DNA from: an uncultured Gemmatimonadales bacterium
GTDB lineage: Bacteria; Gemmatimonadota; Gemmatimonadetes; Longimicrobiales; Gaopeijiaceae
NCBI GenBank assembly: GCA_937919655.1
Contig: CALFPJ010000068.1
Coordinates: forward strand, 1 to 64,000
Length of the DNA stretch: 64,000 bases
Direction of reading: 5' to 3'
Shown here: positions 1,767 to 43,943 of the stretch, one piece after another
Position numbering within the stretch: the stretch's first letter is position 1
How the letters are laid out: each line of letters opens with the position of its first letter
Translations under genes and position numbers: made by a program
The notes under the pieces: generated by a model
Databases searched by the model: none
What the model was told of the DNA's origin: nothing
The model's input: the letters and a program-made list of their open reading frames with translations, nothing else

Positions 1767-2013
1767 GGACGGAGGGGTTAAGGGCTGTCTGGACAGTGGG
1801 TGAGCCACTTCCGCTGGAGGCGTTCTGACATCTGTACGCCACTCACGGCGATCCGTGTCCAAACTGTGGTGCGGCACGATGACCGGGGCAAGGACCCACC
1901 CCACCCTGGGTCGGTGGGAGACACGCGCCGACTCCCCGTCTTTCAGTCTGGGGTTGCGTCCTTTCGCGCTCGGTTTCTCCTTTCGGAACCCCCATCCCTC
2001 GTTAGCCATCCGA

Positions 2014-5000
2014 ATGTCCCAACCTCACGAATCACTTACTCGATCAGGCACTCTCTCTATGTGTGCCCTCTTGGGCGCTATCCTGGGGTCTGCCTGTGCA
2101 GAAAGTGCCCCGGAGTGGCACGAAACCGGATCCGTCAGATGGCGGGAATTGACGGTCCGAGGGGCGTCGACTCCCGGGTTCACATCCTTGGACGCCGGCC
2201 GTACCGGGGTTTCCTTCGTGAACGATCCGAGCGAAGAAATGACCAGGCTCAACCAACACCTCGCCAACGGCGCGGGGGTGGCCTTGGGTGACGTCAACGG
2301 TGACGCCTTGGTGGATATTCTCCTGACCAACACGCGTGGAGCCAACGGACTCTATTTGAACCGCGGGGGCTTTCGTTTCGATGAAGTGGGTGCGACTGCC
2401 GGGTTACACCTTCCCGACCGGCACCCTACGGGCGTCGCACTCGTAGACTTGGACGGCGACGGTGACCTGGATGCGCTGATGTCCTCGATGGGTGCCCCCG
2501 TCGCGTATCTGGAGAACGCGGGCGATGGCACCTTCCAGGATCGCTCGGCGGCGGCGGGCTTCGCGACGACCCGGGCCGGAAGTACGATGACCCTTGCCGA
2601 CATCGACGCGGACGGAGACCTGGATCTCTACGCAGCGAACTACCGCCTGTACCGGGCGGCGGACGCGTTCTCACCTGCCGACCGACGCGAGACTCCTGTC
2701 CTAGAGGAGCGGGCCGGTACCTGGGTCGTCAACGAGAAGTATCGCGAATACTACGAGGTCGTTCTGAGCCCCGAAGGCGTCCTGAGTTGGGAGTTCGGAG
2801 AAGAGGACGATCTGTATATCAACGACGGGAGCGGCACCTTCGCTCGAATTCCAGTGATGGGGGACCGATTCAGGGACAGCTCCGGGACGCCTCTTGCCAA
2901 AGAGCCACAGGAATGGGGCCTGAGCGCCCGCTTTCGCGATCTGAACGATGACGGCGCACCTGACCTCTACGTGGCCAACGATTTCGAGAGCCCTGACCAT
3001 GTGTGGATCAATGACGGCGACGGCTCCTTTCAGTTGCTCGGGGCCCCGGACCTCACGAAGACGAGTCACGCGTCCATGTCGGTGGCCTTTGCCGACGTCG
3101 ATGCCAACGGCACCACAGACATCTTCGTGGCGGACATGTTGCCCGTTTCGACCCGCCTGAGAAAAACGCAAAGGTCGACGCTGATGGAACGCCGCCCCAT
3201 GCAGGGTGACCTCACGTCGACCATGCAGGTGAACCGAAACACGCTGCTCATGCGCGCGCCGGGCGGAGGCTACACGGAGGTTGCTCAGCAGGCCCACCTC
3301 GATGCCTCAGGATGGACCTGGGGCACCGAGTTCGTTGACGTGGACTTAGACGGTCTTCCGGATCTTCTGGCGGCAACCGGACACCGTTGGAACGCGCTCG
3401 ATGCGGATACGGGGGACCGGCTTCGCAGGACCCCGGCTACCGCGGGGGCCGAGTGGCACGACGTGATCGACCTATTCCCGGAACTCCGTCTGCCAAACAG
3501 GGCCTTCCGCAATAAGGGCGACGGTACGTTTGACCCTGTCGTAGGGGCCTGGGGGCTCGATGTGGGATCCGACATTTCCCATGGATTGGCTACAGGGGAC
3601 CTGGATGGTGACGGGGACCTGGATGTCGTGATCAACCGAATGGGGGATCCTGCCCTGGTCCTCCGCAACGACTCTAACGCCGGACGAATCGGCGTGAGGC
3701 TGCGCGGTTTGGCCCCGAACACAGGAGCCGTCGGAGCGGTCATTCACGTCCGCGGCGGCCCGGTCGAGCAGGCGCGTGAGGTCGGCGCGGGTGGCCTCTA
3801 CCTTTCACATTCTGACGGACTGCAGGTGTTCGCTACGGGCGGAGCGCAGCAGCTCACCATCGAGGTACGCTGGCCGTCGGGAGGCGTCACGCTGATCGGG
3901 GATGCATCCCCGAACCGATTGTACGAGATCAGCGAGACGGGTGAAGAGCCGGCGGTCGACACATCGACGGCTTCTGCCGAGCCCGGCCCACTGTTTGAAG
4001 ATCGATCCGCTTGGCTCGGGCACATACATACGGATCTGCCCTTTGTGTCTGAGGCGGGCCAGCCTCTCCTTCCCCGTCATCTGAGTCAGCTCGGGCCAGG
4101 GATCGCATGGACGGACTCGGACGGGGACGGAGATCCAGACCTGGTGGTCGGCGCCGGTGCCGGTGGGTCATTGACCACGTTCCAAAACGTGGACGGTCGA
4201 CTCCGGGCCGGTGGAGCGTCAGCACGTCTCGAATACGACGCGACCACCATCCTCCCGGGAATCGACGGCCGCACCTTACTGGTCGGCGTAGCAAACTACG
4301 AAGCCCCTTCCCCCGAGGTGGCCCGCGCGGTCGCGCCAGCGTGGTCGGTTCGGATCGGGACCGCGGGGCTGGGACCACTCACACCGGCCCTGTCGTCTGA
4401 CGGTGGATCGACGGGACCGCTCGCCTCTGCGGACGTCGATGGGGACGGTGACCTTGACGTCTTCGTGGGTGGACGGGCCTACCAAAGTGCTTATCCCATT
4501 GTGCCGACATCGAGACTCTTCCTGCGGGAGGATGACGGCACTTTGGTCTACGACTCCGTCCGGTCTGCTCCTCTTTCTCGGGTAGGCCTGGTCTCCGGAG
4601 CGACGTTCACGGACATCGATGGTGACGCAGACTCTGATCTTGTGCTGGCCATAGATTGGGGGCCGCCACGCCTCTTCATTAACGAAGGAGGGAGGTTCTT
4701 CGATCAGACCCGCGACTGGGGGCTCGCCCCCTACCAGAGTTGGTGGAACGGGGTCACGACCGGAGACCTAGACGGGGACGGCCGGACCGACTTGGTACTC
4801 ACGTCTTGGGGGCGCAACACGGGATTGTCCCCCACCGCGGACCGGCCGCTCCTGGGGTATTGGGGTGACTTCGACCGGAGCGGTACGTTGGACTTCCTGT
4901 TGGGCACGTTCGATGACCGGATCGGTGCCGTCGCGCCGATATCCGACTTGGTCAGCCTCTCCCGTGGGCTCCCCTTCGTGCGCACGCAGACTACGACGAC

Positions 5001-5721
5001 GTTCGAGGCCTACGCGGATGCGTCGATGGCCCAACTCCTCGGACCCTCTATGGGGGCCGCGACGGTGAACCAGATCATGACGCTCGACCACATGGTCTTC
5101 TTCAACCGGGGCGATCACTTCGAGGCGGTACCCTTGCCCGCCCCCTCCCAGGTCGCACCAGCCCACGGAGTGGCCGTCGCCGACTTCAACGGGGATGGAG
5201 CCGAAGACGTGCTTCTGGCACAGAACTTCTTCCCTAATGCGCTGGGGGCGGAGCGCCACGATGCGGGCCGCGGACTCCTCCTGCTTGGGGACGGCGCGGG
5301 CGGACTGCGCGCGTTGACCCCGGCCGAGTCTGGCATCTCGCTTGCGGGTGATCAGCGTGGCCTCGCGCTCGCAGACTTTGACGCCGATGGTCGCGTGGAC
5401 GTGGCGATCGGTCAGAACTCCGGGCCGACCGCGCTGCTCCACAACCTTGGCGCTACGCCCGGTCTGAGAGTGCGCCTTGAAGGCGGCCCCAAGAACCCGG
5501 TTGGCGTCGGTGCGAGTATTCGGGTGGTCTATGAAGATGGCACGGGGCCCTTCCGAGAGGTGCGACTGGGATCCGGATTTTGGTCATCCGACGATCCCGT
5601 GCAGGTGCTCGGGCTGCGTGCACTGGCTCAAGCGATAGAGGTACGCTGGCCTTCGGGAGAGCTCCAACGTGTGCCTGTCGCCGCCGGCGCCACGGAAATC
5701 ACCGTCAGGCGCGAGTTCTAG
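2014..5721 (+). CDS. Giant FG-GAP/VCBS lipoprotein with two ASPIC/UnbV domains (paralogue 1)
   Basis: 1,235 residues from the ATG at 2014; a longer frame opens at 1855 but has no export signal. The N-terminus is a hydrophobic signal ending in Gly-Ser-Ala-Cys (Cys28), a somewhat atypical lipobox. A conserved WHE...RWREL block follows, then two halves. Each half has several Asp-rich calcium-binding loops (DGDGDLD, DLDGDG) typical of integrin-like beta-propellers, and each ends in an ASPIC/UnbV domain, near residues 560-640 and 1150-1225. The second has REVRLGSG then EVRWPSG. It is full-length kin of the genes at 18491 and 39294. Such proteins are expected on the outer-membrane surface and usually bind ligands; no catalytic residues are recognisable. 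A degenerate 15-bp repeat follows its stop codon. Confidence 0.88.
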   Translation: MSQPHESLTRSGTLSMCALLGAILGSACAESAPEWHETGSVRWRELTVRGASTPGFTSLDAGRTGVSFVNDPSEEMTRLNQHLANGAGVALGDVNGDALVDILLTNTRGANGLYLNRGGFRFDEVGATAGLHLPDRHPTGVALVDLDGDGDLDALMSSMGAPVAYLENAGDGTFQDRSAAAGFATTRAGSTMTLADIDADGDLDLYAANYRLYRAADAFSPADRRETPVLEERAGTWVVNEKYREYYEVVLSPEGVLSWEFGEEDDLYINDGSGTFARIPVMGDRFRDSSGTPLAKEPQEWGLSARFRDLNDDGAPDLYVANDFESPDHVWINDGDGSFQLLGAPDLTKTSHASMSVAFADVDANGTTDIFVADMLPVSTRLRKTQRSTLMERRPMQGDLTSTMQVNRNTLLMRAPGGGYTEVAQQAHLDASGWTWGTEFVDVDLDGLPDLLAATGHRWNALDADTGDRLRRTPATAGAEWHDVIDLFPELRLPNRAFRNKGDGTFDPVVGAWGLDVGSDISHGLATGDLDGDGDLDVVINRMGDPALVLRNDSNAGRIGVRLRGLAPNTGAVGAVIHVRGGPVEQAREVGAGGLYLSHSDGLQVFATGGAQQLTIEVRWPSGGVTLIGDASPNRLYEISETGEEPAVDTSTASAEPGPLFEDRSAWLGHIHTDLPFVSEAGQPLLPRHLSQLGPGIAWTDSDGDGDPDLVVGAGAGGSLTTFQNVDGRLRAGGASARLEYDATTILPGIDGRTLLVGVANYEAPSPEVARAVAPAWSVRIGTAGLGPLTPALSSDGGSTGPLASADVDGDGDLDVFVGGRAYQSAYPIVPTSRLFLREDDGTLVYDSVRSAPLSRVGLVSGATFTDIDGDADSDLVLAIDWGPPRLFINEGGRFFDQTRDWGLAPYQSWWNGVTTGDLDGDGRTDLVLTSWGRNTGLSPTADRPLLGYWGDFDRSGTLDFLLGTFDDRIGAVAPISDLVSLSRGLPFVRTQTTTTFEAYADASMAQLLGPSMGAATVNQIMTLDHMVFFNRGDHFEAVPLPAPSQVAPAHGVAVADFNGDGAEDVLLAQNFFPNALGAERHDAGRGLLLLGDGAGGLRALTPAESGISLAGDQRGLALADFDADGRVDVAIGQNSGPTALLHNLGATPGLRVRLEGGPKNPVGVGASIRVVYEDGTGPFREVRLGSGFWSSDDPVQVLGLRALAQAIEVRWPSGELQRVPVAAGATEITVRREF

Positions 5722-5840: not shown

Positions 5841-7985
5841 CTAGCGCCGCAGCCGCACAAAGGGCCTTTTCGCGCGATAGAGGTCGCGCCTGGCCATAAG
5901 GTCGGGTAGGCGCTCGGTCTCCCCGCGGAGCCGTGACTCGGCGATTGCTTGGTCGACCAGCGATACCGCGTCCAGGAAGCGTCCCGAGGCGGCGAAGGCG
6001 GCGGCTTGCACGTCGAGAACCGCAGGGTGCGGTCCCGTGATCTCGCTCACCTGTCCCGCGAGATCGGCGGCGAGGTCAGGACGCCGAAATGCTTCGTTCG
6101 GCTCGGTCGCCAGCGCCCAGCCCACCGCGAGCGCCGCCTGCACGTTGGCGCCGTCCAACGACAGTGCGCGGTTGAGCTCAAGCAGTGCCTCTTCGCCCTG
6201 ACCCAACGACACCAAAAGGAGGGAGAGGTTGAAACGAGCCGGTGCGAAGTCAGGGGCGGCAAGGATGGACGCGCGATAGTGGCGCTCGGCATCGGCTACC
6301 ATTCCTAATTCGCTGAGCACGCTGCCAAGATTGTTCTGAGCCTCGACGTGCGTCGAGTCGGCCGCGACGGCTCGCTCAAGAGCCGCGCGGGCGCCCGTCA
6401 GGTCGCCCTCCCCTGCCCGCAATCGACCGAGGTTGCTCCAGGCGGCGGGGTACTGCGGCAGGGACGCGACCGCGCGCTCGTAAAGTCGTGCGGCTGCGGG
6501 GGCCTCGCCCTCCTCCTCCCGAATCAACCCGGTGTTGTAGAGCACCTGAGCGTAGTCGGGTTGCACAGCCAACGCGCGCGAATAAAGAGCGAGCGCCTCT
6601 TCATAATTTCCCCGCGCCTGGGCCTCACTTCCGAGTCCAAAAAGAGACTCTGGGTCCGAGGGATTCATGGCAAGGAGATGGCGCCAACCGGCCACCCGGT
6701 CTCGCCCGTGTTTCGCCGCAAGAGCCTGCGAGAGCTGCGCCCCGTCCGACGGCGAATCCGGGAGCACTTGGAGCCAGAATTCCGCCATCTCGTCGCCAGA
6801 CGTAGGGCCGTATACGATTCGACGTGGGGACTCGAACGGATTGAGCGGATTTTCATCAGAGTTGTCGAACGTGTAACGCATTTTCAGGACGGTGCCCGCC
6901 GGCAGGCGGATGCCCGCGGCGTAACGATAAGCGTCCTGCCAATTGAAGTCCCAGCGAGGGATGTCCAGCAGCGGTATGGAGTCCCCCTCGGGCGTCACCC
7001 CCCAAGCGTCCATTTCCCGCCCCAGATAGTGCGCGTGCGGATACACGCCGAGGGCGCTCACACTGACCGGGAGCACAAGCTCGTCGAGGACCTCGTACTC
7101 GGCCTCCCCCGCTGGGATGTCCATCTCCTGCCCCCCGAGGCGCACGATGAGCGGCATTTCGGTGGGTGCTACGTCCGTGAAGTACAGTCCTAATTCCACG
7201 GAGGCTTCTGCAGGGTCCCCGGTGGGCCGTAGGTGGAGTTGAACCACCAAGTCTGCCCCCGGCTCAAGGCTCCAGGCCATGCCGTTCGAATACGGCGTGG
7301 CCAGGCGGCCCGGGGTCCACCCCAGAAAGAAGCCACCGGGGGGTCGCGCCTCGGTCCTGGAGAACATGTCATCGAAGCCCGGAAGCGTGTCCCGCGCGTC
7401 TGCCAAGCGCGACGCCGACGTGCGATCCACGCGAATCGTGGCGTGATGAACCACTTGCGGATTGCCGGGGCGAAGCTCGATGGCACGGACCCAACGAGGT
7501 CGGTCTACGTTGGCCGGCAACACCAGGTTTCGGAAGATCTCACCACCCTCTGCTGGGACCTGGAACACGTCCCCGCTCGAGACGACGAGGTCGGGCTCGC
7601 CCAAGGCCCAACCGCTCGGCCATACCGGCGGCACCGGAGCCTTGTTCGGATTACCCTCGGGCGCACCCGCGGCGGCCCATGCCACGATCAAGTCGATTTG
7701 TTCAGGAGTGAGAAGCCTCGGGTCAGCCATATGCGGCCCATCGGGCGACGGCAGCCAAGGCGGCATCGTCCGCGCGGAGACCATCTCGGCGAGATCTTCC
7801 GCACGCCGGGCGGCGCCCTCGTAGCGGAGCAGTGAGAAAGGCCCCGGTCCTTGGGGCCGATGGCAGCCTGCACATTCCGCATGCACCAGCTCCCCGACAC
7901 CGTTCGACCACGTGGGTGGCCCGGAAGGACCGCAGGCAGCGAGCAGGGACAGCGCACCCACAGTAGCGACCGTCCACCGCGACAT
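5841..7985 (-). CDS. Cytochrome c / copper type II monooxygenase-like / TPR fusion lipoprotein
   Basis: 714 residues from the ATG at 7985, chosen for an AGGTAG ribosome site and a lipobox signal (Leu-Ala-Ala-Cys, Cys18). Residues 30-115 form a c-type heme domain with Cys38-x-x-Cys41-His42 and an MPPW motif. Residues 120-410 resemble the copper type II ascorbate-dependent monooxygenases (PHM/DBM). Candidate CuH ligands are His180-His181 and His251; candidate CuM ligands are His317-x-His319 and Met400 in a SGDEM motif. Residues 445-700 are TPR repeats. The ORF starting at 8045 adds 20 residues overlapping the upstream gene and is less likely. It is the last gene of a five-gene operon, 4 bp after the preceding stop. 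Family chemistry is copper-dependent hydroxylation; substrate and electron donor are not known, though the fused heme could replace ascorbate. Confidence 0.85.
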   Translation of the reverse strand: MSRWTVATVGALSLLAACGPSGPPTWSNGVGELVHAECAGCHRPQGPGPFSLLRYEGAARRAEDLAEMVSARTMPPWLPSPDGPHMADPRLLTPEQIDLIVAWAAAGAPEGNPNKAPVPPVWPSGWALGEPDLVVSSGDVFQVPAEGGEIFRNLVLPANVDRPRWVRAIELRPGNPQVVHHATIRVDRTSASRLADARDTLPGFDDMFSRTEARPPGGFFLGWTPGRLATPYSNGMAWSLEPGADLVVQLHLRPTGDPAEASVELGLYFTDVAPTEMPLIVRLGGQEMDIPAGEAEYEVLDELVLPVSVSALGVYPHAHYLGREMDAWGVTPEGDSIPLLDIPRWDFNWQDAYRYAAGIRLPAGTVLKMRYTFDNSDENPLNPFESPRRIVYGPTSGDEMAEFWLQVLPDSPSDGAQLSQALAAKHGRDRVAGWRHLLAMNPSDPESLFGLGSEAQARGNYEEALALYSRALAVQPDYAQVLYNTGLIREEEGEAPAAARLYERAVASLPQYPAAWSNLGRLRAGEGDLTGARAALERAVAADSTHVEAQNNLGSVLSELGMVADAERHYRASILAAPDFAPARFNLSLLLVSLGQGEEALLELNRALSLDGANVQAALAVGWALATEPNEAFRRPDLAADLAGQVSEITGPHPAVLDVQAAAFAASGRFLDAVSLVDQAIAESRLRGETERLPDLMARRDLYRAKRPFVRLRR

Positions 7986-7989
7986 GCTA

Positions 7990-10900
7990 CTACCTGCTCG
8001 TTGGTCGGGGAACGCCGGCAAGCGGTGCCGGAGGTGCAGGCTCACGCGTGTGGTATAGACCTATCAACTCCGGGTACGGATATGCTTCCCCCGGGCCGTA
8101 GGGATATTGGGTCATCGCGTGGAAAGGCAACGGCTCGACCCTCCATCCGTCCGCAGTATTGAGGTCGGCGTCCTTGATCCAGCCCTCAGTGTATATGAGG
8201 AAGTCACGCGTCCAACCGTCAGGAAGCTCTGGCGCGTTGGCCGCATCGAAGTGGATGGCAAGCTCGTCACCCGGACCCATGATCGGATAACGATCATCCG
8301 CCTCGGTTAGTAACGGAAGCACGTCGCCGTACCGGGTGTACGTGCCCTGGATGGCCCTCCACGGCGACTCGGTGGTGACCGTCTGATAGTCGAACCAATG
8401 AGGGCCGAATCGTCCTCCTTTTCGGTATTGACGAGAGAACCCCCGGTAGCGGAAGTCCGCCGTCTCAGGCTCGAGCCGAGTCACCATGACCGGAGCGTCT
8501 GTGCTCCCCACCGAAAGGAAGGCTTCGTCCCAATAGATGTTCATATTCGTGCGCAACCGGACCCGGTGATCGGCGGTTGCGAACAAGCCGGTCAGGTCCT
8601 GGATCACCGTCTTGTTCTTCCCAGACGGAAAACTGAGCATGGGGACCACCGTCTCCCACTGCCCCGCCGCGTTTATCGCCTCCAAATACGGCATGATCGT
8701 ACCGAGGGCATCGGATTGTGACAAAGCAACATTGATGCTCGCATCCGTCGGGAAGATCCAACCCCGTAGGTAGAGTTGGACCGCTTCGTTAGCTCCGAAG
8801 TCGCCCAAGTCCAGAATCAGGTCGTGGACCTCACTCACGCCCTGATAGCGCCCAGGCTCGAAGTCACTGACATAGACGTCGTCCGAGGCGGACAGGGCCG
8901 GCAGGACGTCGCGCCCACGGTGATCCACCGCAGACAACGGACGGCGGCGCGCCGACAACTGATGCAAGCGGAGGGGTGCATCGGGCTCAGCGAAAACGAA
9001 CCGTTCATCGACGAATACGTCGATTGAATCCGGGTGGTCTATCATGAGGAGATCCACCTCATCGATGAAAAACACCTCCCACAGTTCGCCGGTGACGCGA
9101 ATTTCGTATCGGCCGTCCCGCAGCTGTAGCGCATCGCCTGGAATCCGAAGGTATTCCTGAGATGGTGCCGGGGGCGCGTACTCTGCGTCACCCTGGGCCA
9201 TGAGGCCCATGGGCATGCCAAGAGCGCTCTTCCACATGAGGTCTGTCACGAACTCGAAGCGTTCACCGTTCCACGCGTAGAGGAAGGGGCACGATCCTTT
9301 TAGGATCTGCTCCTCAACCACCGATTGGTCGGCACCAGGATAGAAGAGGTTCTGAGGGACACCGTTCGGCCACCGCACGCGCACGACGTCGGCGCGGGCG
9401 CGTCGGCCAAGGCCAACATGAATGTCCGGTCCTGTGACGACTCGGGACTGGTAAAGACCTCCCGCGCGGACCTCGATCTTGGCCCCAAGACCGAAGTAGT
9501 TGTTTTTCCCGCTGCCCGTGGACAGGCCGACGAGTCGCATCTTCAGATAGCGATTTCCATTGCCGCCGTCGTTGCGAAGCAGCCTTACGGATCCGTCGCT
9601 GGTGGACACGAAAATGTCGAGATCGCCGTCATCACCGAAGTCTGAAATCGCCACCCGACGGAGGGGCGGCAGCGCCGGGACAAGGTGAGACACGTCGTCG
9701 AAGCGGCCGGCGTCCGCATTGCGGAAGAGTTTGACCGCGCCGACCCCATCGGCCGACTCGCCAACCAACAGCACATCCAGCCAACCATCATTGTCAAAGT
9801 CGACCAAGGCCGCATCGTAGATCGCGAGTTCGGTGGCAGCGCGCAGAAGGCCACTGGGCCGCTGGTCCACATCGAAGCGCAGGCCGCCGCTGCTTAGGTG
9901 CAGCGTGACCCCGACCTCCCCGCGTGAGGCGGTCAGCAGGTCTAGGAACCCGTCGTTGTTGTAGTCGCCGATGGAGAGAACTCCCCGCCCTCGCCGGTCG
10001 AGCCCTCGTGCGTCGGCACGATCCGCCATGCGTCCCAGACGTTCGTTGTCGTAAAGGCGTAAACCCTGATCGGTGGATACCACGAAGTCGAGGTCGTCGT
10101 CGTCGTCGAGGTCACCGAAGGCCGATGAGCCGCCCAAGCCAGCTGGTGCAGTCACACCGGCGCGCGCGCTGACGTCGGTGAACGAGCCGTCCAGATTATT
10201 GCGCAACATCACACCGGCCGCGGTTCCGGCGACGGTTAGATCGAGATCACCATCCTGATCGAAATCCAGGAAGAGCGGCGTCCCTTCGGGTAAGGGGACG
10301 CCGAGGGCGTCCGTCACGTCTTCGAAAGTGCCGTTCCCATGATTTCTAAACAGGAGTCCGCTTCCCCCGAGGGCGACATAAAGATCGAGCGCCCCATCGT
10401 TGTCGTAGTCGCCGAATATTGCGGCGGTCGGCTCCCCGGCAGGCAGTCCGGCGGCTGTTGTAATGTCCGCGAACCCCGTGATGTCGTTCTGGAGAAGACG
10501 GCCATCGACGTAAATGTCATCGTCACGGTCTCCGTCAATGTCGGCCAGCGCGAGCACACTCGTGCCCCCGAGCGTGGTCCCCCCTGGGATGCCCACAATT
10601 TCCGTCGCGTCTGTGAAACGCAGCGCGGCGAGGACCGTCTCGACATCGCGAACATCCGCGCCAACCGCCTGACTGAACGTCACCACCGGGAATCCCACCA
10701 GAACGCCACCCGGGCCACGAAGGTCAATGAGGCCTTGCTGGTAGGCAGGAGTCGTCCGCATGACGTTATGGAAGGCCAGTGCGGGTCCACGGGCCCGAGC
10801 TACGTCACCGGCGCGAGCGGCCTCAAGTGCGACCGCAAAGAGATCCTGACCCTCGACAGGGAAGTCCGGGACTAGCTGACGGAGGACCTCCAACTGGATC

Positions 10901-11478
10901 GCGGCGCCTTGGGGGTCATCGGTGGCCAAGAGTGCGTTCACATACTCTACACGCGCAGCGACGTTGCCCTGCTGAAGGTCAACCAAGGACCCCAAAGCGG
11001 CGGCCCGGCGCGCCGGCGCCGAGGGTTCAGCATTATCCGAGCCCAGTGAGGCCAATGCGTAAAGAGTCTTTACGTGGTCCGCGTTCGCAGCCAGCCCGAG
11101 TTCCAACTCGGTGCGCGCCTCTTCCGGGCGGTCCTGGGCCAGGAGGATCTCACTGAGAATCAGGTGTACATCCGGATCTTCGGGAACGAGGGCAAGGGCG
11201 CCGCGAACCTCAGCCTCCGCCTCATCGAGGCGCCCCATACGCAGGTAGGTCAGGCCAAGGTTGGCGTACCCGAGGGGCTCATCCGGCGTCATGTCGATAA
11301 GCCGCCTAAACTCGGTCGCGGCCTCCTCGAGTCGATTCTCTTCAAGAAACGCGAGCCCAACCGTCCGGATCGTGAGCAGATCCGCAGGATCTGGGGGCGG
11401 CCCGGCATCGCGGCACGACGTCATCACGGCCGCGCCAACGACACAGCAAAAAGCCCCTATCCACGGGCGTACGTTCAT
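7990..11478 (-). CDS. TPR / FG-GAP / ASPIC-UnbV lipoprotein with a large C-terminal domain
   Basis: 1,162 residues from the ATG at 11478, whose ATGA overlaps the stop of the upstream gene. An N-terminal signal ends at Cys22 (Met-Thr-Ser-Cys). Residues 30-180 are TPR repeats. From about 300 to 640 there are repeated Asp-rich FG-GAP loops such as DIDGDRDDD and DFDQDGDLD. An ASPIC/UnbV domain lies at about 645-720, with GLGAKIEVR and RVRWPNG. It continues into a ~430-residue C-terminal domain opening with GSCPFLYAWNGERFEF, seen in some CRTAC1/ASPIC proteins and of unknown function. It is the fourth gene of the redox operon. I infer a periplasmic or surface scaffold for the cytochrome and copper proteins encoded beside it. 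Confidence 0.85.
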   Translation of the reverse strand: MNVRPWIGAFCCVVGAAVMTSCRDAGPPPDPADLLTIRTVGLAFLEENRLEEAATEFRRLIDMTPDEPLGYANLGLTYLRMGRLDEAEAEVRGALALVPEDPDVHLILSEILLAQDRPEEARTELELGLAANADHVKTLYALASLGSDNAEPSAPARRAAALGSLVDLQQGNVAARVEYVNALLATDDPQGAAIQLEVLRQLVPDFPVEGQDLFAVALEAARAGDVARARGPALAFHNVMRTTPAYQQGLIDLRGPGGVLVGFPVVTFSQAVGADVRDVETVLAALRFTDATEIVGIPGGTTLGGTSVLALADIDGDRDDDIYVDGRLLQNDITGFADITTAAGLPAGEPTAAIFGDYDNDGALDLYVALGGSGLLFRNHGNGTFEDVTDALGVPLPEGTPLFLDFDQDGDLDLTVAGTAAGVMLRNNLDGSFTDVSARAGVTAPAGLGGSSAFGDLDDDDDLDFVVSTDQGLRLYDNERLGRMADRADARGLDRRGRGVLSIGDYNNDGFLDLLTASRGEVGVTLHLSSGGLRFDVDQRPSGLLRAATELAIYDAALVDFDNDGWLDVLLVGESADGVGAVKLFRNADAGRFDDVSHLVPALPPLRRVAISDFGDDGDLDIFVSTSDGSVRLLRNDGGNGNRYLKMRLVGLSTGSGKNNYFGLGAKIEVRAGGLYQSRVVTGPDIHVGLGRRARADVVRVRWPNGVPQNLFYPGADQSVVEEQILKGSCPFLYAWNGERFEFVTDLMWKSALGMPMGLMAQGDAEYAPPAPSQEYLRIPGDALQLRDGRYEIRVTGELWEVFFIDEVDLLMIDHPDSIDVFVDERFVFAEPDAPLRLHQLSARRRPLSAVDHRGRDVLPALSASDDVYVSDFEPGRYQGVSEVHDLILDLGDFGANEAVQLYLRGWIFPTDASINVALSQSDALGTIMPYLEAINAAGQWETVVPMLSFPSGKNKTVIQDLTGLFATADHRVRLRTNMNIYWDEAFLSVGSTDAPVMVTRLEPETADFRYRGFSRQYRKGGRFGPHWFDYQTVTTESPWRAIQGTYTRYGDVLPLLTEADDRYPIMGPGDELAIHFDAANAPELPDGWTRDFLIYTEGWIKDADLNTADGWRVEPLPFHAMTQYPYGPGEAYPYPELIGLYHTREPAPPAPLAGVPRPTSR

Positions 11479-13217
11479 CGATTTTCTCCCATGGTGACGA
11501 ATTCCCCAGCGGCCACGGTGCCCACCCTGCTCGTAGTGCCAGAGCGTGGCCACCGCACGACGACGCTGTCCGCTGCAGCCTCACCCCCGAGGCCGAAACG
11601 CAGCGGCGTTGCCGCGGACTGCGAAAGGTAAGAGGAGCCGGTGCCGACGAAGCGGCGCTGCACACGCTCACCCGTGAACACAGTCACCAAAGCTCCCAGT
11701 CCGGTGCGATTCGGTTCCAGGCCTTCAAGGCGAACGCCGATTGATGCAGCCCCCTCGAGGTCGTTCCGGAACAGACGGGGCGAACCGCCGTTGACCGTTA
11801 ATAGAAGGTCAAGATCGCCGTCCCCATCGATGTCCGCGGTCGCGATGCCTCGCCCCACCACAGGTTGAGCAAACCCGTCGCCAAGTTGATCGCTCACGTC
11901 TGCGAAGCGCCCGCTGCCGTCCCCCAGGAACATCTGGGGACGCTGCGCGAAGGTCTGATCTTGCTGCACCGCGGCGACGCCTGGCTCGATGTGTCCGTTG
12001 GCGCTCACCAGATCGGGGACCCCATCAAGATCGAAGTCGGCGAAGAGAACGCCGAAGGTGAGCGGAACGAGCGTCGATCTCGTGAGCCGGGCCGCGCCAG
12101 CTCGATCCTGGAAAAGATCTTCTCCGATCTGCGTGAAAAGGGCGACGGGCTCATGCGCGAAGTTGCCGATCGCGATCGACCACTGGCCCTCACCGGTCAG
12201 ATCTGCCACGTCCACGCCCATTCCAGCGCGTGCTCGACCGGCCTCGTCAAATGCGACGCCCGCCCGCACGGCGATGTCTGTGAAAGTGCCGTCCCCATCA
12301 TTTCGGTAAAGAAAATTGCGCTGGGTGTCGTTCGCGACCACGAGATCGGGCCAGCCGTCGTCATTGATGTCGGCGACAGCTACGCCGAGCGATTTCCCTT
12401 CGGGATTGAATACCCCGGCAGCCTCCGTGACATCGGAGAAACGCCCGTTGCCGGTGTTGCGATAGAGCCGGCATGAGTCACCCGAATACTGCTGCGGCGT
12501 GGCATAGGACTTCGTGGAGCCATCGATGGTGGCGAAGAGATCCGTCTCGGGGCTCCAGCGCACATAGTTGCAAACATAAAGATCCACCCACCCATCCAGA
12601 TCTATGTCGACCCAGACGGCCCCGGTCGACCACGACGCGTCACCGCCAGCGCGCTGACCACTCACACCGGCGAATGCGGTCACGTCCGTGAACCGGCCTC
12701 CATCGTTGCGAAGGAGCAGGTTCGGTCCAACCGCCGTCAGGTAGACGTCCACGTCACCGTCTCCATCATAGTCCGCGGCGGTGACCCCCATGCCGTAGAG
12801 CGAAAGGTCGAGCCCAGCTGCCACTGTCACGTCTTCAAATCGTCCGTCACCCAAATTCCGGTACAACCGCTGCGTCGGCCGCGCCCTCTCATACACCTGA
12901 CCCTTCCACCAATCTGAGTTCACAAGCAACAAATCCGCGTCACCGTCGCCGTCGTAATCGAAGAAGGCCGCGCCGCTTCCCACGGTCTCGGGCATCCACT
13001 TTTCGCCCAACGCGCCGGTCGCGTGTTGGAAGTCGATCCCTGCATCGACGGAGATCTCGGTGAAACGGAGCGCCGTCGACGAGCCGGCGCCGGCGCCGGA
13101 GGCATAGGCGGGCCCCGAATACTCCGGGGCGTCTCGAGGGACCTCTTCGGCACCACCGCATGCGGCGAGCAGAACGACAAGTCCCGAACCTACCTGCAAA
13201 TAACGACGGAAGATCAT
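11475..13217 (-). CDS. CRTAC1-like lipoprotein (FG-GAP repeats plus ASPIC/UnbV)
   Basis: 580 residues. The signal peptide ends in Leu-Ala-Ala-Cys (Cys20). The mature part opens with a DAGIDFQHATG block, followed by repeated motifs of the type DYDGDGD...DVYL and LYRN.GDGRF.DVT, each a blade-like calcium-binding unit. An ASPIC/UnbV domain occupies about 490-560, with GLGALVTVF and VVRWPRSG. This matches the CRTAC1 architecture used by many environmental bacteria for secreted or surface proteins. Start and stop both overlap their neighbours by 4 bp (ATGA), so it is the third gene of a translationally coupled operon between a multiheme cytochrome and a TPR/ASPIC protein. It probably binds calcium and protein or polysaccharide partners; no active site is evident. 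Confidence 0.88.
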   Translation of the reverse strand: MIFRRYLQVGSGLVVLLAACGGAEEVPRDAPEYSGPAYASGAGAGSSTALRFTEISVDAGIDFQHATGALGEKWMPETVGSGAAFFDYDGDGDADLLLVNSDWWKGQVYERARPTQRLYRNLGDGRFEDVTVAAGLDLSLYGMGVTAADYDGDGDVDVYLTAVGPNLLLRNDGGRFTDVTAFAGVSGQRAGGDASWSTGAVWVDIDLDGWVDLYVCNYVRWSPETDLFATIDGSTKSYATPQQYSGDSCRLYRNTGNGRFSDVTEAAGVFNPEGKSLGVAVADINDDGWPDLVVANDTQRNFLYRNDGDGTFTDIAVRAGVAFDEAGRARAGMGVDVADLTGEGQWSIAIGNFAHEPVALFTQIGEDLFQDRAGAARLTRSTLVPLTFGVLFADFDLDGVPDLVSANGHIEPGVAAVQQDQTFAQRPQMFLGDGSGRFADVSDQLGDGFAQPVVGRGIATADIDGDGDLDLLLTVNGGSPRLFRNDLEGAASIGVRLEGLEPNRTGLGALVTVFTGERVQRRFVGTGSSYLSQSAATPLRFGLGGEAAADSVVVRWPRSGTTSRVGTVAAGEFVTMGENR

Positions 13218-16120
13218 CTACGAATCGGAAGTCGGTGAATCGGAATGGGTTGGGCCATGATGTTGGCACCCTCGTCTTGAGCCCGATACGCTCGCGTGAT
13301 CTCCTGCGCGGCCTCATCGATGCCGTAGTAGAGATACGCCGCCTCAGCGAGGTCGGCTTCCGCGTTCCTCCCGAGTGCCCGCAGGGAGAGCATGCGGTGA
13401 TAGTGGGCCACCCGATCTTCGGGGTCGATGTTCAGGACCTCCTGGAGCGCCGCAAGCGCATCGTCGTATTGTTGATCCAGATAGCGGGTGCGCCCTAGTG
13501 CACGCCATGTAGCTCGGTCGCCCGGGAAGTCCTCCAGAACACGCGTGTACGCCTGGCCCGCCTCGGCATACCGCCCGTCTTCTTGCAGCACCTGCCCCCA
13601 CACCCACGCGGCCTGAGCGTTCGCCGACTCCAAGGCCTCGACCCGCGCCAGGGCTTCATAGGCCGACAGCAGGTTCCCTTCAGCGAAAGCTGTGCGAGCC
13701 AGGTTGAGGGGGCCATCTAGCGATGTCGGTCGAAGGGCCTCGACGCGGGCAAAAGCCCCCGCAGCGCCACGGGTGTCGCCCTCCAAGAGGAGTCCGATTC
13801 CGTAGTCGTTGTAGCGCATCCACTCGCTTTCGGCCGGAACGGCCTCGCCGGCGCTGCCGGTCCCCGCGGCGGTCACGGTTAAGACTACGGAGTCCCTGGC
13901 CACCTCCGTGATCGGCAGATCCGGCACGGCAGTGAAGGCGCGAAATCCCTCGGGGTTGGCGTTGTACGCAAACTCCGTGTAAGCGCGGTCGAACTTCCGC
14001 CACAGGAGCCGGACAGCAACAGTGACTCTCCCACCTGCCAACTCAGAGGGAAGCGTGAATTCGTAGTGGGCGAGATCTGCCGTCCCGGGGCCGATCACGT
14101 TCTGGTACACGGTAACATGAATGTCCTGAGCATTCCGCTGCTGAATCGGGTTGCCGTTCTTGTCGACGATGACCGCCTTGAACGTGTGCGCCATGGGGTC
14201 CAGGTACCCGTCGGCGCCCACCAAACCACTCGCCACCAACTGGGCTCCGGTCGAGTCCGTGACGGTGAACTCCAACCAGCCTTCGTTAGAGTCGTTCGTC
14301 CCCCCAGGAAAGGTGTGCCCGACCCCAAGGTTGCGGACAACGACGTCGACCGTGAGCGACGTTCCGGAGGGGATCGACGATGACGCCTTCGCCAAAGGCA
14401 TCGCAGTCTCCCTGCCGGCAACTCGCACCGCAATAACATCTACCCGCAGCTTTTCCGCCTGAAGGAAATCCTCGACGCGGCGAAGCGTTGAGGTGTCCCC
14501 TCGCAAAAACGGCAAGGCGGTATTCGCCGCCACAAACCTGTGTGACCGAACCATCCCGTTGTCGGCGGCCACGTCGCCGCGAGGCGCCGGCTCGGGCGGC
14601 ATGTGACAGTCCTGACACACACGGCGCGCGGGCGGAAGGTAGAAGGTCCGTGAAGCGTTCAGAGACACCCCGCTGTCATCCCAGTTGTCGAACTCGTTCT
14701 GGCCGCGCAGCCACCGGTATCCGTTGACGGGTTCCGAAAGACTCACTTTGTGGCAGGTGGCGCAGTACCCGCTTTCTTTGAAGAACGGCTTCAGGAGCTG
14801 CGCCTTGTGAACCGCCGGCCGCGCCTTGAGCGCGAGGTCGTGCAGATACCGGCTCGCGGACCCGACCGGAGAGTCGGAGAACAAGTACGGGTCCTCCTGC
14901 GCGTCCGCGATATTGTAGTTGCCGTTGCCGGTTTGGTCGTGGATCTGGTCGATCGCGTGGCACGCGAGGCAGGTAAGCCCGGCCTGAGCCTCGACGGAGC
15001 CCCGATCGATATCTCGCCCCATTGTACCCGCCAGCATGAGCGCTGGATCATGACAACCGCTGCACCACTTGCTCTTGGCTTCCCCCACTCCTGCCACATC
15101 GCCCCCGAGCGCCTCTATGTGCTCTGCCACCCACGGGTTGGGTTCGAGTGCGCTTTCGCGCATACTCCGGATCGTGGCTTCGTAGAACGGGTTATTGAAC
15201 GAAGCGAAGCGGTGCGCGGAGGCCGCCCATTGATCGACGACATCGGGGTGACATGCCTCACACGTCTCGGCCCCAATGCGGGATTCACGGACGAAGCCGC
15301 TCTGCTCGACCTCGGCCCTTACCGTCGCGGCAGGAGTGCCCCAGCCGGGCTGGGTAAGAATGCGAGCCGCCAAGTACCCACCAGTAGTCGTGGTCGCCGC
15401 AGACGGAAAGAACGGACTTTCCGGTGGCACCGCGCCAACCGGAACCCACCCGGCGTCCCCGAAACGGCCTCGCATGAGTATGGACACGTCGCGGTTCGGA
15501 CTTCCCGGGCCAGTGGAAGCCAGTCCGCCGGCCACCACCGGGGAGGACACACCCAGCGCGCCGTGCAGCATGAACATCGCCAGGCCGGACGCGGCCACGA
15601 TTCCCAAGAAGCGGGCGATCCGCACCACCTCAGGGCGCGTGTAGCTCACCAAGCGGTGAGCGACGTAGGCCACCACGACGAACAAGCCGCCACCCACGTG
15701 CAGCCACCACGCCCACCGGTTCTCCCTACTCGCTGCAGCCGACAGAATGAAGAGCCCGCTCACCACGAGTAGGGCACCGAGCAGCGCGTAGGGGACACCC
15801 GTCCACACCGCGCCCGCATGGTACCGGCGCCACACCGCGGGCAAATGAGCGACGAGGAAGCCCAGCATGAGCGCCGCCAAGACCAGCCCAACGCCAGTGT
15901 GGCCCAGGAGCATGACCTGGTAAAACCGCGGCAGCGTCGCCGCCCCTAAGGCAAAGGGCGCCAAACCGACCGCGTCCGCCAACCGGACCAACACGAGATA
16001 GACGGTGTCGGCGAGCATGAAGGCCGAGCCCACCAGCAGGACAGACAGAGATCGCTTCAACCATTTGGGTAGAAGCGAAGGCAGCCGCGGCCTGCGCGGA
16101 GATTCTGCCGGTTCGGTCAC
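13214..16120 (-). CDS. Membrane cytochrome b-like domain fused to pentaheme cytochrome c and TPRs
   Basis: 968 residues with a GTG start whose GTGA overlaps the upstream stop. Five hydrophobic segments fill residues 25-190. Histidines at 74/92 and 141/155 lie within two helices, a pattern suited to b-heme ligation, with one more at 186. The exported part holds five CxxCH sites at Cys287, 353, 384, 453 and 502, in a layout like the cytochrome c554 and multiheme superfamily. Residues 555-770 are beta-rich. Residues 790-930 are TPR repeats. I infer a quinol-oxidising module passing electrons through c hemes to periplasmic partners; the nearest partner is the copper monooxygenase-like protein at 5841. 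It lies second in the operon. Which electron acceptor is used is not visible. Confidence 0.85.
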   Translation of the reverse strand: MTEPAESPRRPRLPSLLPKWLKRSLSVLLVGSAFMLADTVYLVLVRLADAVGLAPFALGAATLPRFYQVMLLGHTGVGLVLAALMLGFLVAHLPAVWRRYHAGAVWTGVPYALLGALLVVSGLFILSAAASRENRWAWWLHVGGGLFVVVAYVAHRLVSYTRPEVVRIARFLGIVAASGLAMFMLHGALGVSSPVVAGGLASTGPGSPNRDVSILMRGRFGDAGWVPVGAVPPESPFFPSAATTTTGGYLAARILTQPGWGTPAATVRAEVEQSGFVRESRIGAETCEACHPDVVDQWAASAHRFASFNNPFYEATIRSMRESALEPNPWVAEHIEALGGDVAGVGEAKSKWCSGCHDPALMLAGTMGRDIDRGSVEAQAGLTCLACHAIDQIHDQTGNGNYNIADAQEDPYLFSDSPVGSASRYLHDLALKARPAVHKAQLLKPFFKESGYCATCHKVSLSEPVNGYRWLRGQNEFDNWDDSGVSLNASRTFYLPPARRVCQDCHMPPEPAPRGDVAADNGMVRSHRFVAANTALPFLRGDTSTLRRVEDFLQAEKLRVDVIAVRVAGRETAMPLAKASSSIPSGTSLTVDVVVRNLGVGHTFPGGTNDSNEGWLEFTVTDSTGAQLVASGLVGADGYLDPMAHTFKAVIVDKNGNPIQQRNAQDIHVTVYQNVIGPGTADLAHYEFTLPSELAGGRVTVAVRLLWRKFDRAYTEFAYNANPEGFRAFTAVPDLPITEVARDSVVLTVTAAGTGSAGEAVPAESEWMRYNDYGIGLLLEGDTRGAAGAFARVEALRPTSLDGPLNLARTAFAEGNLLSAYEALARVEALESANAQAAWVWGQVLQEDGRYAEAGQAYTRVLEDFPGDRATWRALGRTRYLDQQYDDALAALQEVLNIDPEDRVAHYHRMLSLRALGRNAEADLAEAAYLYYGIDEAAQEITRAYRAQDEGANIMAQPIPIHRLPIRR

Positions 16121-18303
16121 GCTCCCTCCCCGCCCAAGACAAACGGCCCTCGCTGCACCACTTCGACTCGCCCGCTCCCCTCGTCGATGCGGTACTCTGC
16201 GTCGGGAGTCACGCCGTCAATCACATCCACCACACCGGAAGTAGGCCACGACACAGTCACCGATACGGCGCCGATCGCGGCCCCAAGCCCGATGTCGAGC
16301 CTTAGCGGGTTCCCACCAAAGGAACTCCCGCTCGTTACCGTGCGGTGCAGCACCCGGCGCAGACCCCCATCGTCAAACTCCACTGACACGCGGGCACCGA
16401 TCGCAGATCGATTCGAGTCCTGACCGACGAGACGAAGAGAGACCCAGTGATTCCCGTGCCCAGGGTTCTCGAAAAGCACGTTGCGACCCAGGTCCCCCTC
16501 ATATGCCCCACCCATGGCGGCAAACACGTCTTGGTCTCCGTCATGGTCTATGTCCCCGAACGCGACGCCATGACCCTTTTCGATCAAGCCGAAGCCGCCC
16601 GAAGTCGTCACGTCTTGGAAGCCCTGGCCACGGTCATTCCTAAACATCCGATTGGGCATCAACGCTTGAAAGTAGGCGTCCCCGGTCCCGAGGTACAGAT
16701 CAAGCCAACCATCGTTATCGAGATCCCCAAAGTTGGATCCCATAGAAAACTGGATCCGATCGAGGTGCACACGCTCAGTTACGTCTTCGAAGGTGCCATC
16801 GGTTCGGTTGCGATACAGGCGAGGAGGCTCGGACGTGTGCGGCAGACCGAGGTACTCGGCAGCCACATCGCCAAAATTAGTGCGATACCCGGCCACATAG
16901 ATGTCCAGCCAGCCGTCGTTGTCGTAGTCCCAGAACCAAGTGGGGAAGGCGTCGACCGGTTCCCCTACACCGGCATGGTCGGTCCGGTCACTAAAATGCC
17001 ACGCACCATCAGATCCCACCCCCTCGTTTCGCAGCAAGACATTGGGCGCGCCTGTGCGTGACACGTACAGGTCGGGACGGCCGTCGTTGTCGTAGTCGCC
17101 AGAAGCGACCCCCTTCACGATTCCCACTACGGCGGCCCCTACCTCAGGCGCGACATCGCGGAACGTGCCGTCCCCAAGATTCGCGAAAAGTTGGCTCGGA
17201 TGCGGGGTCACCCCGAACGTCTCGTTTCCCACGAATAGGTCCAGGAGTCCGTCGCCATCGAAGTCCAACCAGGTCGCGGTCTGCGTGGGGTAGGTCGGCA
17301 TCAAGAGGCCCGCTGCTTCGGTCACGTCTTCGAAGGTGCCGTCTCCCCTGTTTTTCAAGAGAGAATTGGGCTGACCGTCAGCGAGCCATCCGCCGCGCAT
17401 GACGAACACATCCAAGGCGCCGTCGTTGTCGTAGTCCGCCTGCACCAGGTTTCCGCCACCCCACAGCCCTTCAAGGCCGGCCGAGCCGGTCCTGTGTTCA
17501 AACGTGCCGTCACCGCGGTTCCGGTGGAAACGAATCGGGTCACGTAATTGCCACGATGTCGCCATCAAATCCAGAAGCCCGTCCCCATCGAAGTCGTCCA
17601 TCACGGCGCCCCCAACATGACCGACCTCGTTCACGCCTAGCACGCCGGCCACCTCCTGGAATCTCCCGATCTGATACTCAGAGTCGAATACCTCCGGTGG
17701 GATACGCCACGCGACAGGGACTTCGGCTGGGTAGGTGCCGACCATCATATGGCTGAGATTGAGCATCCACCGCACGCCTATACTCGTCGGATCCAACTCG
17801 AGTAGCTCTCCGTACACCCGAGCGGCCAACACTGCGCCCTCGACGTCTGCGGAGATCCCCTCTGAAGGCACGGGCACGAGACAAGCCACCGGGCCGACAC
17901 CGTCGATACAGTTTTTCCGCTCACCAGAGCGAAAGTAGGCGATCGCGAGGAAGTCCAGAATCGAGTATTCGAACGTCGGAGGCGCCTGGTCAGCGGGAGA
18001 CGCCGTCTGCTGGTAGGCCACTAGATCGCTACGCAAAGACTCAAGATCGCGAATCGCCTCGTCGAGCCGACCGGCGTAGAGCCTCTGCTCCGCCAACGCC
18101 AGGCGAAAGAGGAGCGCCTCCCTTTCGGTCTGTCGGGGAGGCAAGGCCTCCATGGCAGACACCATTGCGCTGTTCGCAAAACGATTTCGCATCGGGTCGA
18201 CAGTCTCAGCCAACTGATCCAGGCGTTCGACCATCGAGGGGCCGCTGCCGGCAGCGGGGCCGTCAACGCACGCGGCCATTGAAAGCAACAACACCCCCCA
18301 CAT
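16117..18303 (-). CDS. CRTAC1-like lipoprotein with helical N-terminal region (first gene of redox operon)
   Basis: 728 residues from the ATG at 18303. I chose this start because AGGAG lies seven bases upstream and it gives a short signal ending in Met-Ala-Ala-Cys (Cys12). The longer frame to 18504 would overlap the next gene and lacks an export signal. Residues 20-200 are helical and TPR-like (AEQRLYAGRLDEAI). Residues 210-610 carry FG-GAP calcium loops (DFDGDGLLD, DYDNDGRPD, DIDHDGDQD), and residues 620-700 an ASPIC/UnbV domain. The stop overlaps the GTG of the pentaheme cytochrome gene. A shrunken relative lies at 42977. Role is inferred as surface binding or assembly with the redox proteins. 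Confidence 0.87.
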   Translation of the reverse strand: MWGVLLLSMAACVDGPAAGSGPSMVERLDQLAETVDPMRNRFANSAMVSAMEALPPRQTEREALLFRLALAEQRLYAGRLDEAIRDLESLRSDLVAYQQTASPADQAPPTFEYSILDFLAIAYFRSGERKNCIDGVGPVACLVPVPSEGISADVEGAVLAARVYGELLELDPTSIGVRWMLNLSHMMVGTYPAEVPVAWRIPPEVFDSEYQIGRFQEVAGVLGVNEVGHVGGAVMDDFDGDGLLDLMATSWQLRDPIRFHRNRGDGTFEHRTGSAGLEGLWGGGNLVQADYDNDGALDVFVMRGGWLADGQPNSLLKNRGDGTFEDVTEAAGLLMPTYPTQTATWLDFDGDGLLDLFVGNETFGVTPHPSQLFANLGDGTFRDVAPEVGAAVVGIVKGVASGDYDNDGRPDLYVSRTGAPNVLLRNEGVGSDGAWHFSDRTDHAGVGEPVDAFPTWFWDYDNDGWLDIYVAGYRTNFGDVAAEYLGLPHTSEPPRLYRNRTDGTFEDVTERVHLDRIQFSMGSNFGDLDNDGWLDLYLGTGDAYFQALMPNRMFRNDRGQGFQDVTTSGGFGLIEKGHGVAFGDIDHDGDQDVFAAMGGAYEGDLGRNVLFENPGHGNHWVSLRLVGQDSNRSAIGARVSVEFDDGGLRRVLHRTVTSGSSFGGNPLRLDIGLGAAIGAVSVTVSWPTSGVVDVIDGVTPDAEYRIDEGSGRVEVVQRGPFVLGGEGA

Positions 18304-18490: not shown

Positions 18491-21400
18491 TCAAGACGGC
18501 TCAAATTGGATTACGACCTCAAGGGCCCCTGCGAGGACGGGCGTTTCGGTGACGACGCCTCCTGGCCAGCGCACGCGGACCGCTCGTGGCGTGCCAGAAA
18601 GACCAAGGACTTGAACGGTATCATCACTCGACCAATACCCCGATCCCGAGTGGACTTCCCGGGCGGGGCCAACCGCGGAATCGTAGAGAATCTGCACAAC
18701 CGCACCCACGCCGACGGGATTGAGTACGGGCCCTTCGAGGCGGACTCTGAGCCCCGGCTTCGCTCCCACATTGTGAAAAAGCTTCGTCTCGGATCCGTGC
18801 TGCGCTAGGGCGAAATCAATGCGACCATCGGAGTCATAATCGGCGAACGCAGCCCCCCGCTGGTCGCCGTAAGCGATCAAACCGGACACGTCCCCCCCCA
18901 AGGGACGCATCCCTCCGTCCCCCTCTCCGAGCAGGATTAGGCCGCGGCCGGCGTCGTAGCGCGGGGTGAAGCCATCTGTAGGGAAGAAGTTCTGTGTCAG
19001 GAGCAGGTCCTCGACTCCGTCACCATCGACGTCCGCCACACCTACGTGCGAGGCCGGGGCAAGCTGGGCCAGGTCCGGGAGCGGCCGCGACTCGAACGAT
19101 GTACCCATGTTGAAGAACGCCGTATGAGCAAGCGTGGCGACCTGGAGTTGGAAGAGCCGACTGGGATCGATACCGAGCACCTCCCCGAGCGTGGCCTGGC
19201 TGTATGCATCGAACGCCCCGATCCTCCCTCGCAATGAAGGAAGGCCTGCCCGCATCTGTTCGAATCTGGCCAACGGGTACAACGGCCCTCGGGGCGCGCG
19301 CGCTCGAGAGAGCGCGACTTCCCAAGATCCACTCTGGTCGACGTCCCCATGCACGAGCGTCAGGGGTCGGTCCGGGGACGTGGCCAGACGAGTGTTCAAT
19401 CCCTCGTTGGTCGCGACGAGGTCCATTCTCCCGTCCCCGTTCAGATCCCCTGCGGCTATGCCATTCCAGAGCCCCGTTAAGGCGGCGAGTCCCCATTCTT
19501 CTGAAACGTCCCGGAAGCCTCCGCCTTCGTTTAGGAACAGGCGTATCGGCCCCCATTCCAGAGCCAACGCCAGATCGGGGTCACCGTCTGCGTCGATGTC
19601 CGTAAACACGGCACTCGAGACCAGGCCAACATCGCTGAACGGTGAGCGTGTACCCTCTGGCGTCCCGCGGTACGACCCGCCCTCGTTCATGAGGAGGCGC
19701 GACGTGGCAGGCAACGGGTAGTAGGCGGGGACCGATCGTCCGCCCACGAACAGGTCCAAGTCGCCGTCGCCGTCCACGTCCGCTTGAGCGAGAGGGCCCA
19801 CGGAAGTCAGATGCGGCCCCACGATGGGCACGGACCCGCTTCCGCCGGTCGAGGCCATCCCAATGACACCCGGCACCGCACGAGCCTCGTCCGGCGTCGA
19901 GGAGTCGTAGCTCGTCTGACCCACAATCAGTGACGCCCCGGCCCCACCCCACACCGGCAGTACCGTCGTCTGGTCGTGTGTGCCCGTCGAGCCCTCCAGC
20001 TTCGAAAAGCGTGCTCCGTCGTTTCGCATCGTGACACGCGCCGCGCCAGAACCGGCTGCGACGACCAGGTCGGCATCCCCATCACCCTCGATGTCTGCCC
20101 AAGTCACCCCAGGCCCAAGACGGGAGAGCTGATACGGGAGGAGCGGTTGCCGAGCAAAATCTGCGAAGGCCTGGTCTTCGTGGGTGTGATCAAGAAGCCC
20201 TGATGAATCTTCGAACAAGATCGTGGCCGCTGTTTCGACCTCGCTCGGGGCGAGTGCGGTCGCCCCATCTTCCTGAATCTCGTAGAGCCGATTCGCTGAG
20301 GCCGGCACCCGGCTGACGAGACCACTGCGCCACACGACCTCCAGGGTCATCTCCGACGACTCCGCCCCCGCCGCAAACGTCACGAGGGGCTCCGACCCAG
20401 ACAGGTATAGCCCCGCTGCGCGCATCTCCTTGTCTTGAACGGGCAGCGCGCCGCCGAGCAGACGCACCCGGGCGCCCACGCCCCAAGAGTTCGGGGGCCG
20501 GCCCACCAGCCGGACGGCAACACGCGCAGCCGTCGCTTCATTTCGTAACAGAGAAGCGGTCATATTGAGTCTGTTCACCACCGCGTCCAGATCACCGTCT
20601 CCGTCAAAGTCCCCGAGCGCGATGCCGTGAGAGACGTCTGGGTCGTCGCCGAAACCCCAGGCCTGCCCGACCTCTTCGAACGTCAGATCTCCCCTGTTGC
20701 GGAAGGCGAGGTTCTTCGTCGGCAAGTCCGGATACAGCGACTTGGCATCATCCCACGTCATGGACCCGCGTAGACTCGAGATGCGCTCGAAGGCGTCTCC
20801 GTCTCGCATGTCACGGCCGTGCCCGTTGACCGTGAGGAGGTCCTCATACCCGTCGAGGTCGACGTCCAAGAAGACGCTGCCCCAGGTCCACTCGGACCCG
20901 TCGACGCCGGCCATCTCGGCCATCTGCGCCCACGTGCCGTCACCACGAGAGAGGAAGAGCGTGTTGCGCCCGACCTGGAGGCGATCGCTCCACCGACCAA
21001 TCGGTTTTTCAATCGAGGCATGCAGCGGAACCTGAGCGAGCCGCTTGGCTGGGTCAGCGCTGAGCATGTCCGCGACAAAGAAGTCCACATGGCCGTCGCG
21101 ATCAATGTCCGAGAAGTCCACGGCCATGGAGGCGTGGCTCGTCGTGCGCAGCGCGAGAAGGTCTGCGGCGCGAAAGAAGCCCGTTCCGTCGTTGAGCCAC
21201 AGCTGATCCGGGTCATCAAAGTCGTTGCAGACATAAAGATCGGGGTCTCCGTCGCCATCCACGTCGTGGAAGCCAACGGCCAAGCCGAAATCGTCCAGAT
21301 CGCGCGTGAGCGGCTGGCCATTCGACTGCAGAAAACGCCCACCATCCCATGGCACCGGCTCAAACACGCCGGCCCCATCGTTTAGGTAGAGACGATCCGG

Positions 21401-22162: not shown

Positions 22163-22460
22163 GTCATTCTCAACTGTCTTTCCGCGTACAGGGTATCTGG
22201 GCGAGGACACAACTGATACCGACTGCGGTTCGCCTGCGAAAGGTCGCTGTATGAGCACGTACGGTCCGGAATTCGGTATCTAAGGTCAGCGCGGCGATGA
22301 CGCCGCTGCGTGGCCACCGAAGTAGCTCAGGAGAAAGCTGAGCAGCCAACGAATCGAGAGATTCCTGATCGCATGTGCCCTGAACTACCGCGCGCGCCCA
22401 CATGTACGCCGCAACGTTCAAGGGGCCGCCAAATCACCGCCCGGAAAAGATAGCGTCCAT
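22163..22460. other. Divergent intergenic region, paralogue 2 / TonB receptor remnant
   Basis: 298 bases between two divergent starts. It must have held promoters in both directions. I could not identify a convincing -35/-10 pair, operator or RNA element in it. Confidence 0.4.
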
Positions 22461-43906: not shown

Positions 43907-43943
43907 GGGCCCCGGGTCGCTTGAAGGGAAGCAGTGACCCCCG

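Follow-up and report, generated by a model that had tools for sequence, protein, structure and literature searches.

Five genes, here called A to E, follow one another closely on the minus strand of the window, the whole 64,000-nucleotide stretch of DNA that was analyzed, which belongs to a 3.77 Mb genome in 114 contigs. Gene A (16117-18303) encodes a 728-residue FG-GAP/ASPIC lipoprotein, and gene B (13214-16120) a 968-residue protein with a transmembrane region, five CXXCH motifs, an Ig-like domain, and a C-terminal TPR region. Gene C (11475-13217) encodes a CRTAC1-like FG-GAP/ASPIC lipoprotein of 580 residues. Gene D (7990-11478) encodes a lipoprotein of 1162 residues in which TPR, FG-GAP, and ASPIC segments precede a C-terminal domain of about 420 residues, and gene E (5841-7985) a 714-residue lipoprotein that combines one CXXCH motif, a PHM/DBH-like ligand pattern, and TPRs. 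FG-GAP repeats and an ASPIC/UnbV domain score above the Pfam cut-off in A, C, and D, and likewise in a sixth product, F. Gene F (18491-22258) encodes a large double-ASPIC FG-GAP protein and adjoins A upstream on the same strand, so the five-gene boundary drawn in the first-pass annotation, real as those genes are, is too narrow. The start of A at 18303 is uncertain, because the frame stays open upstream to a TTG at 18504 and reaches the end of F, and because related loci also permit starts near the F stop codon.

The coordinates of the open reading frames confirm the junctions given for A to E in that annotation. Stop and start codons overlap as GTGA between A and B (16117-16120), as ATGA between B and C (13214-13217), and as ATGA between C and D (11475-11478, a junction that varies in relatives), while D and E are separated by a 4-bp gap (7986-7989). 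Operon structure and an envelope location are supported. A, C, D, E, and F each show a lipobox-type start. A scan for promoters and terminators returned sites no more numerous than in shuffled sequence. Bacterial operons commonly contain four-base gene overlaps, so that these mean little on their own. More than chance is involved, however, in the recurrence of the B/C overlap across phyla: many B-C loci have a 4-bp RTGA overlap at this junction, among them loci from Gemmatimonadota, Latescibacterota, Phycisphaerae, other Planctomycetota, and a Burkholderiales MAG.

B is a predicted multiheme cytochrome with its own membrane domain. Its CXXCH motifs lie at residues 287, 353, 384, 453, and 502, and all five are invariant among 36 sequences, together with four histidines in two pairs (H74 and H92, H141 and H155). 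The AlphaFold2 model (pLDDT 83, pTM 0.81) opens with five long helices spanning residues 19-51, 65-99, 102-128, 132-157, and 165-189. These spans place the four invariant histidines in helices 2 and 4, an arrangement that resembles diheme b cytochromes, with putative membrane insertion and heme pairing. The invariant histidines and heme motifs support the earlier proposal of a membrane cytochrome, one for which electron exchange with quinone is conceivable.

The heme stretch of B is followed in the model by a beta-sandwich, and among solved structures Foldseek ranks 5ze8, a penta-heme cytochrome c552, as the best match (E=7.5e-8, with a TM-score of 0.63 by target). The B sequence profile also finds 5ze8, though weakly (E=5.5e-4), aligning both the heme and the Ig-like stretches. 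A 2025 study groups this c552, from Thermochromatium tepidum, with Geobacter ExtKL and the Ig-like-bearing pentaheme cytochromes of cable bacteria, and relates the group to an archaeal cytochrome nanowire (PMC11976967). Like ExtKL/Gsu2801, the cable-bacteria sPHC and lPHC, and T. tepidum c552, B has five c-heme motifs followed by an Ig-like domain in the fold of the family. The structural match and this grouping make B look like a membrane-anchored, TPR-bearing branch of the pentaheme ExtKL/c552 fold. It is not an ExtKL orthologue, as the NCBIfam ExtKL model NF040886 scores only 24.8 bits against a cut-off of 250; the two share a related fold. What sets B apart from these cytochromes is a membrane domain of five helices that bears the four invariant histidines, a TPR region at the C terminus, and co-encoding with a CRTAC1 protein; no porin gene lies nearby.

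By sequence, C is related to human CRTAC1 (E=3.7e-19), and the architecture of FG-GAP repeats with an ASPIC/UnbV domain in A, C, D, and F resembles that of human CRTAC1 (9etn) and ASPIC-UnbV proteins. Unlike the human protein, these bacterial proteins are lipoproteins genetically tied to a cytochrome. Eukaryotic CRTAC1 is not known to have a redox role. A further likeness is to hydrazine-synthase-like alpha and beta-gamma clusters, in which a CRTAC1 family gene adjoins multiheme proteins, some with cytochrome c554 domains (PMC12758564). A difference is that those clusters are defined by HZS homologues.

Among 298 genomes of the phylum, about 27 encode a relative of B that is full-length or nearly so. 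A wider scan gave 215 candidate stretches encoding a B relative, of which 80 named loci were kept. Their records are named Gemmatimonadota, KSB1, Calditrichota, Bacteroidota (and Rhodothermaceae), Neomarinimicrobiota, Latescibacterota, Planctomycetota, and Pseudomonadota, and the B of the window groups in the B tree with records named Gemmatimonadetes. The available sequence extends 1.5 kb or more beyond B in 63 loci; 60 of these have a C gene downstream on the same strand, 51 of them within 300 bp. The B and C trees of 59 loci share 33 of 56 splits, and their distances correlate at r=0.88, against a highest value of 0.29 in 500 permutations. By these measures B is co-inherited with C in at least eight phyla, a count that follows MAG record names, which can be wrong. 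One B-C contig (G086; L042/L129) appears to be the public record Gammaproteobacteria SB0662_bin_11; its B groups with Palauibacter-type sequences, against the Gammaproteobacteria name, and mis-binning is probable. In the Bacteroidota isolates Lutimonas saemankumensis and Lutibacter citreus, the B-C pair stands alone.

Judged by neighborhoods and trees, the core of the locus is therefore the B-C pair and not the set of five genes. The earlier idea that propeller lipoproteins are partners of a membrane cytochrome draws support from the same pairing and tree congruence, and conservation of gene order in relatives, expected of a five-gene unit, holds for this pair. Antisense frames of GC-rich DNA swamped an all-against-all search for further conserved neighbors, which yielded nothing usable beyond genes that close relatives share.

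A second, diverged version of the pair, B2-C2-D, is carried by several families. B2 is about 27-28% identical to B and keeps the membrane and heme domains, with CX3CH as its first heme motif, but lacks the TPR region. C2, at 35-37% identity to C, has a CRTAC1 region followed by TPRs. Five genomes (G120, G125, G116, G220, and G226) carry both versions. The presence of the TPR region on C2 instead of on B suggests that the B and C products act as one complex. This relocation could also be coincidental shuffling, since propellers and TPRs are common modules.

D is the most frequent companion of the pair. The conserved, beta-rich C-terminal domain of about 420 residues has no Pfam match. It is predicted to fold well (pTM 0.81), and its model gave nothing significant against solved structures (best E=4.5e-3). 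The domain served as a specific probe for D, which was found in 63 of the 298 genomes. D is present in 37 of the 40 genomes with B or B2 and in 26 of the other 258 (Fisher p about 1e-26, a value that ignores shared ancestry). No more than 12 kb separates D from B or B2 in 29 genomes; of the remaining eight with both, the genes are on separate contigs in seven and 53 kb apart in G050. This distribution indicates that D is the usual third partner of B-C in Gemmatimonadota, and the scattering in relatives that would mark a chance neighbor applies to D only weakly. The 26 genomes that carry D without a detected B-type gene imply that its role is not confined to the B-C unit.

Insertions between C and D occur in some relatives and are kept out of the core because they are lineage-specific. 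In family f7, an FG-GAP_2/LVIVD propeller gene lies at this position (L045, 13332-15875). In genus g108 (L055, 2500-6340; L038), genes resembling asparagine synthase, radical-SAM enzymes, and tryptophan halogenase follow C, with D after them in L055; this insert resembles a small biosynthetic cluster placed into the locus.

A and F are recurrent accessories, less frequent than D in the loci sampled. The order F-A-B-C-D is kept in three related genomes (G287, G116, and G118) and in a KSB1 locus (L110), and both genes also accompany B-C-D in G220 and L064 with altered orientation or order. A does scatter in relatives in part, as its relatives of about 50% identity lie mostly away from B.

In E, the motifs CXXCH, HH, H, HxH, and DEM occupy invariant positions in 12 relatives. 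Equally invariant in these are the residues that, by motif, we take to be the PHM-type copper ligands, namely H156, H157, and H227 for CuH and H293, H295, and M376 for CuM (A2 numbering). The Pfam model PF03712 matches E below its cut-off (E=0.0049 to 0.012) and is found in seven of the 12 relatives (best E=9.6e-4). A PDB sequence search with E and its relatives returned TPR matches only or none, and no solved relative. From its ligand pattern, it is plausible that E is a copper monooxygenase of the PHM/DBH type. The HH, H, HxH, and Met motifs match those of PHM and dopamine beta-hydroxylase; in contrast to these enzymes, E also has a c-type heme domain and TPRs in the same chain. Outside this genus, one E relative adjoins a different FG-GAP lipoprotein (L168, 8912-13961), so E-type proteins may have paired with propellers more than once.

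We consider it rather likely that the locus encodes a quinone-linked membrane electron-transfer unit, in which five c-hemes relay electrons to a partner docked by CRTAC1 propellers and E is an optional client. Two b hemes of B would mediate electron exchange with the quinone pool, and its five c hemes would carry the electrons out into the periplasm. The TPR surface may hold the propeller protein C, along with D, A, and F where these are present, and C may dock the substrate or redox partner on the periplasmic or the outer side. E, which was added at the end of the operon in this genus, would be one possible client.

B may instead be a periplasmic reductase or oxidase in its own right, turning over an oxyanion or another small molecule at one open-site heme, with C and D as structural or calcium-dependent stabilizers and no long-range electron export. 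The pentaheme family is placed among potentially catalytic cytochromes in the work on cable bacteria (PMC11976967), and the Geobacter ext cluster with ExtKL is tied through the porin ExtI to selenite and tellurite reduction (PMC5877670). The occurrence of B-C alone in Bacteroidota also fits such an enzyme. However, a conserved propeller partner without a catalytic motif fits docking equally well, and the open heme is putative; we regard this explanation as doubtful.

The first-pass annotation had read all five proteins as one envelope complex, with B feeding c-heme electrons to E and E hydroxylating an exported or captured substrate at copper. All five genes are tightly coupled in the window, the order F-A-B-C-D-E recurs in G287 and also in G116, where D and E overlap by 4 bp, and the heme motif of E sits next to a complete, invariant PHM-type ligand set. 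The window and these two genomes are, however, the only three in which E joins the operon. The close relative G118 (L033) has F-A-B-C-D without E, and the 12 other E relatives that were retrieved all lack A-D and F in their surroundings, so gene order, kept for B-C, breaks down for E. By this distribution E is a recent, optional, lineage-specific add-on at the operon end. Copper-dependent hydroxylation agrees with the ligand pattern, but the PHM fold is drawn from that pattern and a sub-threshold Pfam match, and the activity would concern at most three sampled genomes. A fixed complex centered on it is not borne out, and we judge the five-protein reading improbable.

It is very unlikely that the locus specifies an extracellular electron conduit of the porin-cytochrome type in the outer membrane. 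The pentaheme domain of B is related to ExtKL, whose genes sit with a porin gene in Geobacter, yet no recurring porin gene was seen in the B-C neighborhoods, the pair stands by itself in Bacteroidota, and B carries a membrane anchor of its own instead of being exported. That unrelated envelope genes are merely co-transcribed, as the variation of A, E, and F between relatives might suggest, is hardly tenable overall and already disfavored for B-C, given the pairing, junction overlap, and congruent trees across phyla and the independent B2-C2-D version.

The electron-transfer reading also admits a broader and more tentative form. The locus may represent a class of quinone-linked respiratory complexes that spans phyla and has so far escaped description. 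In such complexes, a membrane protein of the diheme-b/pentaheme-c type would be served by a CRTAC1 beta-propeller lipoprotein of its own, which would dock the electron partner on the outer periplasmic side or at the cell surface, and interchangeable propeller and enzyme modules (A, D, F, and E) would set the substrate lineage by lineage. The literature search, which covered open-licence papers, found no description of a cytochrome-CRTAC1-TPR system; the nearest case is the CRTAC1 gene of the hydrazine-synthase-like clusters (PMC12758564). A possible tie to the enediyne genes unbV and unbU found no backing among these papers. The B-C heart of the set does not appear to have been described previously. 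CRTAC1/ASPIC proteins are common in environmental bacteria, and we found no bacterial function described for them. Their strict genetic link to a membrane multiheme cytochrome offers a first testable role, and since cultured marine Bacteroidota have the pair by itself, work on it need not rely on uncultured Gemmatimonadota.

Further relatives of these genes occur outside the operon. One, at G000:C99:3027-5138 of this genome, is a second, intact A-like gene with 54% identity to A. Within the window, an A-like FG-GAP/ASPIC frame of 328 residues (42977-43963, minus strand) matches A in separate pieces and is apparently a shortened remnant; it is overlapped by a third F-like double-ASPIC gene (42980-39294). 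Upstream of F, a TonB-receptor-like gene (22461-24146, plus strand) is 71-77% identical to relatives up to position 23855, where the match ends, which suggests a truncation, a rearrangement, or a break in the assembly at that point. A second F-like double-ASPIC gene (1855-5721, plus strand) is convergent with the operon, and an F-like gene occupies the same convergent position in four other loci (L031, L032, L033, and L054).
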